A stretch of DNA of 38,144 nucleotides. It comes from Deltaproteobacteria bacterium GWF2_42_12. Its GTDB lineage: Bacteria; Desulfobacterota; GWC2-55-46; UBA9637. Under the pieces are notes generated by a model, which was not told the DNA's origin, did not search any database, and worked only from the letters and a program-made list of their open reading frames with translations. The position numbers and the translations under genes were made by a program. Where the stretch lies: NCBI GenBank assembly GCA_001797665.1, contig MGQA01000110.1, positions 6,157 to 44,300 on the forward strand, in the 5' to 3' direction. Of the stretch, positions 17,101-18,918 are shown piece by piece. Position 1 is the first letter of the stretch, and the number at the start of each line of letters is the position of its first letter.

Positions 17101-17104
17101 TAAT

Positions 17105-17184
17105 GAATTACGATTTACGAATTACGATTTACGAATTAAAACCCCAAATCGTAAATCTAAAATCGTAAATCGAAAATTGTAAAG
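17105..17184. repeat. Inverted tandem-microrepeat array (unit 7 nt, GAWTTAC)
   Basis: GAATTAC GATTTAC GAATTAC GATTTAC GAATTA ... aaatcgtaaatctaaaatcgtaaatcgaaaattgtaaag. Confidence 0.9.
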
Positions 17185-17401: not shown

Positions 17402-17869
17402 ATGTCTCTGAGAGAAGAAATTGTTAGACAGATGAACGAGGCTGCAAAGGCTGCCAAAGATGAGGCAGGTAGGCAGAGGCTTGAAACGCTGCGCAATGTT
17501 CTGGCGCAGGTAAAAAATAAGGAGATAGCGCTCATCAAGCGTTCTGAGGGCTTGAGTGATGAGGAGGTTATTTCCGTTGTCAGGACTATGATAAAGCAGT
17601 GTTTCGAGTCCATAGAGATGTTTAAAAAGGGTGGAAGAAATGATTTGGTTGATAAGACCGAGGCAGAACTAAAGATACTTAAGTCATTTCTTCCACCTGA
17701 GCTTTCAAGAGATGAAATAAAGGGTATTGTCAGCGAAGTGGTAAAAAGCCTGAACGCCTCTGGCCCTAAGGATATGGGCAGGGTCATGAAAGAGGTTATG
17801 CCAAAGGTTGCCGGAAAGGCTGATGGTAAACTCGTAAATGAGGTTGTAAGAGAGCTTCTTGGCCAGTAA
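17402..17869 (+). CDS. yqeY: GatB/YqeY domain protein
   Basis: RLETLRNVLAQVKNKEI...FKKGGRNDLVDKTEAELKILKSFLPPELS. Confidence 0.92.
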   Translation: MSLREEIVRQMNEAAKAAKDEAGRQRLETLRNVLAQVKNKEIALIKRSEGLSDEEVISVVRTMIKQCFESIEMFKKGGRNDLVDKTEAELKILKSFLPPELSRDEIKGIVSEVVKSLNASGPKDMGRVMKEVMPKVAGKADGKLVNEVVRELLGQ

Positions 17870-17875
17870 GGCTTG

Positions 17876-17955
17876 AATATGGAGCAAGGCAACCGTGTTG
17901 CCTGTTATCGCCATGATTAGGACGCCGACACGGTCGGCTTGCTCCGTATTTTTTG
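17876..17955 (+). terminator. Structured intergenic hairpin followed by T-run, after yqeY; candidate intrinsic terminator or structured RNA
   Basis: aatatggagcaag (17876-17888) pairs with cttgctccgtatt (17938-17950) with one wobble, followed by T-rich tract. Confidence 0.6.
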
Positions 17956-17964
17956 AGGGATAAA

Positions 17965-18918
17965 ATGAAGATAAAAGATATCTATACAAAGGCTGTTCAA
18001 TGCGGTATAGAACTTGACCCACGCGGCAAGTCTGAGGTCGAGGCTGAGCTTAAAAGGGCTAAAAAGGATTTTGACGAGCTGAAAGAAGACAAGAAAAAAG
18101 AATTTGATAAAGAGAAGCTAATAAACCCCTATGCGGATACCCGTATATTATATGGAGACCCTGATAGAGATGTAAAAGTTGTTTTTGTCGGTATTGATAT
18201 GGAGGTTGGCGAAGTTCTCCTTGCTGACAGACTGACGGGCAAGGGCAAATCTATTGACCTGGTAATTTCTCACCATCCAGAGGGAAGGGCTATGGCAGCT
18301 CTTTATGAGGTTATGGATATGCAAGCAGGCATTCTCCTGAAATATGGTGTTCCCATTAATGTCGCCGAAGATATCATGTCTGAGCGGATAAAAGAGGTTG
18401 AGCGAAGGCTTCTCCCGATCAATCACACCAGGGCAGTAGATGCTGCAAGGCTTCTGGAAATACCTTTTATGTGTATTCATACACCTTCAGACAATGCTGT
18501 TACGAACTATCTGCAGAAGATTTTTGATGAAAAAAGACCGGATACGGTCTCAGATGTCATTGACATCTTGAAAGGTATTCCTGAATATAAAGACGCAATA
18601 ACTGAAAAGGCAGGACCCAGGGTGATCGTGGGAGCAGAAAAGAGAAAGGCAGGAAAGATTTTTGTTGATATGACAGGCGGCACAGGCGGCAGCAAGAGTA
18701 TCTATGAAAAACTGGCAGCTGCCGGTGTTGGCACGATTGTTGGCATGCACATAAGCGAAGACCACAGGAAAGAGGCAGAAAAGCATCATGTGAATGTGGT
18801 CATTGCAGGACATATGAGCAGTGATAATCTTGGCATGAATCTGCTTCTGGATGATATACTGAAGGATGTAGAAGTTATTGCAGCATCTGGTTTTAGAAGG
18901 TTCAGCAGAAAGAATTAG
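17965..18918 (+). CDS. NIF3-like (NGG1p-interacting factor 3 family) protein (track ORF from 17953)
   Basis: VVFVGIDMEVGEVLLADRL...LVISHHPEGRA...HTPSDNAVTNYL...VIAGHMSSDNLGMN. Confidence 0.8.
   Translation: MKIKDIYTKAVQCGIELDPRGKSEVEAELKRAKKDFDELKEDKKKEFDKEKLINPYADTRILYGDPDRDVKVVFVGIDMEVGEVLLADRLTGKGKSIDLVISHHPEGRAMAALYEVMDMQAGILLKYGVPINVAEDIMSERIKEVERRLLPINHTRAVDAARLLEIPFMCIHTPSDNAVTNYLQKIFDEKRPDTVSDVIDILKGIPEYKDAITEKAGPRVIVGAEKRKAGKIFVDMTGGTGGSKSIYEKLAAAGVGTIVGMHISEDHRKEAEKHHVNVVIAGHMSSDNLGMNLLLDDILKDVEVIAASGFRRFSRKN

Follow-up and report, generated by a model that had tools for sequence, protein, structure and literature searches.

A probable REPIN of a TGGA-foot repeat family lies between yqeY and a nif3-like gene in a deltaproteobacterial genome

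The 38,144-nt stretch of Deltaproteobacteria bacterium GWF2_42_12 analysed here (the window) carries, in this order and on one strand, an S21 gene, yqeY (17402-17869, + strand; Pfam PF09424, 147 bits) and a Nif3/DUF34-like gene (17966-18918, + strand; PF01784, 23.2 bits, just below the 23.4 cut-off), for which we picked the ATG start through comparison with relatives. The closest named homologues of a 310-aa protein from the window, at 88-89% identity, put the host among uncultured groundwater 'Deltaproteobacteria' MAGs. Between the latter two host genes lies a head-to-head dimer of a short palindromic repeat (17876-17950), the single copy of this repeat in the window. Arm 1 (17880-17902, + strand) consists of the foot TGGAGCAA (17880-17887) and the hairpin GGCAAC-CGT-GTTGCC (17888-17902) and matches the family consensus exactly. 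Arm 2 (17924-17946, - strand) is inverted and consists of the foot CGGAGCAA, read on the - strand, and the hairpin GCCGAC-CGT-GTCGGC; its single mismatch to the consensus is the first base of the foot. The spacer between them (17903-17923), at 21 nt, is unusually long for the family.

An earlier note on this DNA had described two hairpins with complementary loops, enclosed by a closing stem, lying after yqeY and running into a T-rich tract. Direct reading of the sequence bears out the parts: the outer arms aatatggagcaag (17876-17888) and cttgctccgtatt (17938-17950), whose stem includes one T.G pair; the hairpins ggcaaccgtgttgcc (17888-17902) and gccgacacggtcggc (17924-17938), which belong to arms 1 and 2, respectively; the loops ccgtg and cacgg; and a T-run from 17949. 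The position after yqeY also holds, as the PF09424 gene ends at 17869. Both hairpins are present, but they are best described as stems of 6 bp closed by a loop of 3 nt (as in GGCAAC-CGT-GTTGCC) rather than as the 5 bp first proposed, and the bases for twin hairpins within a closing stem exist although the predicted minimum-energy fold is one long rod, for RNA and single-stranded DNA alike. In this copy, 4-nt AATA/TATT flanks lengthen the rod. The strong folding of the element is not due to chance: over 111 nt the predicted folding energy is -44.8 kcal/mol (z -4.45), and none of 200 shuffles did equally well.

Searching the element against its own genome (G000, 2.44 Mb) returned 45 matches. A 23-nt pattern of the half-unit matched 138 times, against 2 for a reversed-pattern control, and the corrected consensus TGGASCRAGSCRACCRTGTYGSC identified 132 half-units against none for the reversed control. 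Across 61 genome stretches we read 128-135 arms, according to how many mismatches were allowed. An arm comprises an 8-nt foot, TGGAnCnA, followed by a 6-bp hairpin with the loop CGT or CAT. Almost every foot reads TGGA[GC]C[AG]A, and positions 1-4, 6 and 8 are nearly invariant. High copy number, dispersal and a short palindrome with a conserved 5' foot are together what marks a REP.

The 6-bp hairpin is intact in 119 of 128 arms, and four stem types dominate the 128 (GGCAAC, 58; GCCGAC, 31; GGCGAC, 18; GCCAAC, 12). Two of the six stem pairs show double-sided changes: pair 10/22 is G-C in 82 and C-G in 45 of 135 arms, and pair 12/20 is A-T in 75 and G-C in 58, so that both sides change and pairing is retained. 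The inner hairpins are thus true conserved units, maintained through compensatory change. According to the earlier note, the proposed structure would be refuted by homologous copies that failed to preserve inner stems or loop complementarity; across the 135 arms the inner stems are preserved, but loop complementarity among the dimers is not.

Arms are mostly arranged head to head, with 58 such dimers in G000 and 28 in relatives, and the feet lie outside in all 58 inverted pairs of G000. Nine neighbouring arm pairs in G000 are in direct orientation, and lone arms also occur. Start-to-start offsets between arms are mostly 28-35 nt; that of the yqeY copy is 44 nt. It is very rare for both arms of a dimer to carry the same stem type: 1 of the 58 G000 dimers is homotypic where about 14-15 would be expected, and none of the 28 in relatives is. 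Counting distinct arm-pair types, 1 of 49 is homotypic against 14.0 expected, with a minimum of 4 in 20,000 shuffles, figures that overstate significance since dimers are copied as units and are non-independent, a bias that the use of distinct haplotypes lessens but does not remove. This near-strict rule of unlike stems suggests avoidance of long perfect palindromes, which lets the small hairpins form.

In 16 of 58 dimers the two loops are identical and therefore complementary; this complementarity is broken in the orthologous copy beside yqeY in relative G004, which belongs to another genus. On the loop data from the 58 dimers we rejected a kissing-loop RNA, and with it the kissing interaction that the earlier note had drawn from the loops. 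The loop complementarity of the yqeY copy is a by-product of its arms being inverted copies of one repeat. Its perfect closing stem is likewise a by-product, because the two 9-nt feet match completely in just 4 of 58 dimers. With its near-perfect closing stem and matching loops, the yqeY copy is an unusual member of the family.

A Pfam search identified ten Y1_Tnp genes, one of which, P0001, is an intact RAYT of 181 amino acids on contig C22 (2766-3308), outside the window. It passes the NCBIfam model REP_Tyr_transpos (NF047646) with 91.7 bits against a cut-off of 80, and its sole PDB match is E. coli TnpA-REP (4er8, E 1.4e-10). Four REPs of the same family surround it, two direct copies immediately before the start and an inverted pair immediately after the stop. 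A second RAYT, 77% identical to P0001, is a fragment at the edge of contig C13 (L026/L107, 1-284), where the contig breaks inside the gene; three direct REPs lie upstream of it. A genome_contigs scan with the RAYT as query gave no close homologue, and no copies of the repeat were found near the nine other Y1 genes.

Because the repeat occurs in high copy and mostly as inverted pairs, and its copies flank the intact RAYT, adjoin the RAYT fragment and are absent at the nine other Y1 genes, we conclude with high confidence that the feature at yqeY is a REPIN, inserted between yqeY and the nif3-like gene and belonging to a dispersed REP family that is very probably copied by a RAYT. By analogy with REP-RAYT biology, the RAYT would act as a single-strand HuH/Y1 nuclease that reads foot and hairpin on single-stranded DNA, cleaves beside them and copies the dimer to new sites. 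The scarcity of identical-stem dimers would prevent arm-to-arm pairing into one long, perfect palindrome, and different stems would favour two small hairpins, to which the RAYT would bind. An element of MITE type, mobilised by a DDE transposase instead of a RAYT, would also be non-autonomous, short, bounded by inverted repeats and present in many copies. Yet here each arm forms a hairpin of its own whose stem covaries, some arms stand alone or in direct pairs, copies flank the RAYT, and inspection by eye of the printed flanks revealed no constant target duplication; we therefore consider a MITE highly improbable.

Some observations count against the REPIN reading. The foot is TGGA instead of the usual GTAG; cognate RAYTs were not found in the assemblies of relatives G001 and G003-G006 though copies are present; some copies are old and common to different genera, a slow turnover for a mobile element; and the rod, not twin hairpins, has the lowest predicted energy in the yqeY copy. 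In G001, the RAYT may be absent through an assembly gap, since the contig ends just past two REPs whose neighbour gene is also the one found in G000.

At the yqeY locus itself, G004 carries an orthologous dimer with a homologous spacer, and this spacer occurs nowhere else in the eight genomes searched. The G004 copy is 90% identical to that of G000, against 42-43% identity at the four-fold sites of yqeY and nif3; one arm has partly decayed and the loops no longer match, while the overall rod and the T-run are kept. In G005 the site is empty, with a hairpin-free 8-bp gap before the nif3 start, and in G001, G002 and G006 unrelated inverted repeats fill the slot. A GTAG-bounded hairpin at this slot in G002 was considered as another dispersed REP, which its single copy in G002 does not support.

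These comparisons bear on two further readings of the locus. One is a locus-specific structured RNA with two kissing hairpins, for instance one that serves in regulation or processing of the yqeY-nif3 transcript. The strong predicted folding and the G004 orthologue, which retains rod and T-run at an identity far above that of the neighbours' four-fold sites, would fit such an RNA, but the same element is dispersed across the genome, loops match in a minority of dimers and not in G004, the slot is empty or holds unrelated inverted repeats in other relatives, and nothing in Rfam 15 overlaps the element even at E up to 1. We give this reading scarcely any credence. The other, which is compatible with a REPIN as a secondary role, is that an ancestral copy was co-opted as a terminator or attenuator between yqeY and nif3. 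Here a long stem leads directly into a T-run, an arrangement kept in G004, and the locus-unique spacer is ~86% identical between genera. A terminator scan found none, although it allows short loops only; a T-tract on either side accompanies only 14 of 58 sister dimers; and the G005 gap lacks any hairpin. In addition, the T-run (17949-17954) looks like part of the nif3 leader, because similar TTTGAGGG-type sequence precedes nif3 in relatives that lack the element. Co-option seems unlikely. As a side effect of insertion, a transcribed dimer may, as a long rod, dampen expression into nif3. Of the earlier interpretation, then, two points stand, that the element is more than a simple terminator and that its small hairpins are real units; the kissing loops do not, and what lies here is a repeat copy, with no sign of an RNA particular to the yqeY locus.

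Beyond G000, the repeat is found in five other genomes of the family (G001 and G003-G006), with 6-30 half-units each; in the 33 genomes searched outside this family it is absent save for one two-mismatch match. Flanking sequence places 17 of the 35 relatives' loci examined at a G000 locus. In nine full-element comparisons, orthologous elements are 87-100% identical, and 96-100% in seven of them, the lowest values being those of the yqeY copy and of the most distant uvrA copy (87%); at a distance of 61-200 bp, identity of the flanking DNA is for the most part 75-90%. Arm identities are subject to ascertainment, as relatives' copies were found by consensus similarity. Spacers are free of it, and over seven pairs about 108 of 114 spacer bases match (~95% pooled, counted manually from the alignments). 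Outside the nine comparisons, the dnaE and PAS/HisKA pairs in G005 are clearly diverged and gapped. The pairs L042/L241, L064/L242, L068/L227 and L073/L217 are inter-genus orthologous REPINs that are 98-100% identical including spacers, exceeding the surrounding DNA.

We also checked L031, a region with five dimers, without selecting on the presence of repeats. Only one of its five slots is filled by the repeat in any relative (G004), and there both arm and spacer have changed. Shared dimers as the rule were accordingly rejected; turnover is high, and those dimers that are both conserved and shared form a selected minority. The idea that REPINs are held in place as functional sites at the nucleotide level, or return to their sites through homing between genera, strikes us as doubtful. 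With the shared, unusually conserved dimers, some of them in core genes, one can test whether REPINs are passive passengers, have been domesticated or act as homing elements.

A number of dimers sit in open frames spanning the whole stretch examined, nine of these frames with Pfam matches. In-frame copies (loci L042, L047, L049, L057, L058, L063, L067, L073 and L079) occur in genes for UvrA, DNA polymerase III alpha, IleRS, an HhH-GPD repair enzyme of endonuclease III type, LptD (a single arm), an RND pump, a PAS/HisKA kinase, a P-type ATPase and a BcrAD-type ATPase. In UvrA, an insert of 28 residues separates two blocks that align with solved UvrA, and this insertion is common to three genomes; in DnaE and the endonuclease III-like protein, the inserted residues fall in a gapped or unaligned stretch. 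Well-conserved shared copies include those within uvrA, the endonuclease III-like gene and the RND pump gene. Such in-gene copies are typical REP behaviour, because in other bacteria uvrA, uvrB and dnaE contain REPs, according to PMC3733652.

Other repeats share these neighbourhoods. Before the S21 gene, the window holds a different dispersed inverted repeat (17104-17182; ATTACGATTTACGAATT... / ...AAATCGTAAATC), a 31-nt stretch of which has four places in the genome within 3 mismatches, and an element resembling it at L031:3032-3098 has many matching places in all seven relatives. The REPIN slots of L031 (356-429, 576-629, 1042-1169, 1875-1942 and 2891-2947; orthologous loci L246-L257) hold unrelated inverted or tandem repeats in relatives, and the window slot 17870-17965 is likewise filled by a REPIN here and by unrelated repeats in relatives. 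It is as if the same intergenic gaps were repeatedly filled by different palindromic elements.

The TGGA-foot REP family with its divergent RAYT appears to be undescribed, although its kind, the REPIN, is already known; the open-access papers searched yielded no description of the TGGASCRAGSCRACCRTGTYGSC repeat. As a non-GTAG family with an identifiable RAYT partner in an uncultured deltaproteobacterial lineage, it is useful for testing how RAYTs read the foot. With REPINs and BIMEs and their RAYT (TnpA-REP), among them the E. coli Y-Z BIMEs and Pseudomonas REPINs as described in PMC3116915, PMC2817692 and PMC8266576, it shares the short palindrome, conserved 5' foot, high copy number and inverted pairs, as well as a RAYT flanked by copies and two related arm types per dimer. 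Unlike the E. coli and Pseudomonas elements, with their GTAG or GTGG, it has the foot TGGAnCnA, a short 6-bp stem 8 nt from the foot start, and an uncultured deltaproteobacterial host. Among the arms read in the genome, no GTAG or GTGG tetranucleotide stands at the hairpin foot, which is of TGGA type, and no CGTC tag at the arm ends.

P0001 also differs from E. coli TnpA-REP, lacking W94, Q95, H101 and R104, at which a manual count in one pairwise alignment with 4er8 gives F, D, A and S, with D at E100. PMC6006769 ties these residues to the recognition of GTAG and reports good conservation of W94, Q95 and R104 within the GTAG-type subclasses; in that one pairwise alignment, the residues of P0001 fit a RAYT that may read a foot other than GTAG. 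RAYTs of Y1 subclass 2.6 type with atypical REPs, treated in the same source, likewise have REPs without GT[AG]G near the RAYT. Hairpins preceded by GTAG (for example GTAG-GGTGCGC...GCGCACC) flank other Y1 transposase genes of the same class, at L088, L091, L096 and L099; systems of GTAG type and of TGGA type thus occur side by side in this class.

GTAG- and CGTC-tagged palindromic repeats (PMC3733652) resemble the present family in their head-to-head dimers, heterodimers with different stems and copies in DNA repair genes including uvrA and dnaE; unlike them, the TGGA-foot family bears neither tag. Rickettsia palindromic elements, covered in the same source, are also palindromic repeats in frame within conserved genes, but they differ in sequence from the family described here, which has a RAYT in its genome.
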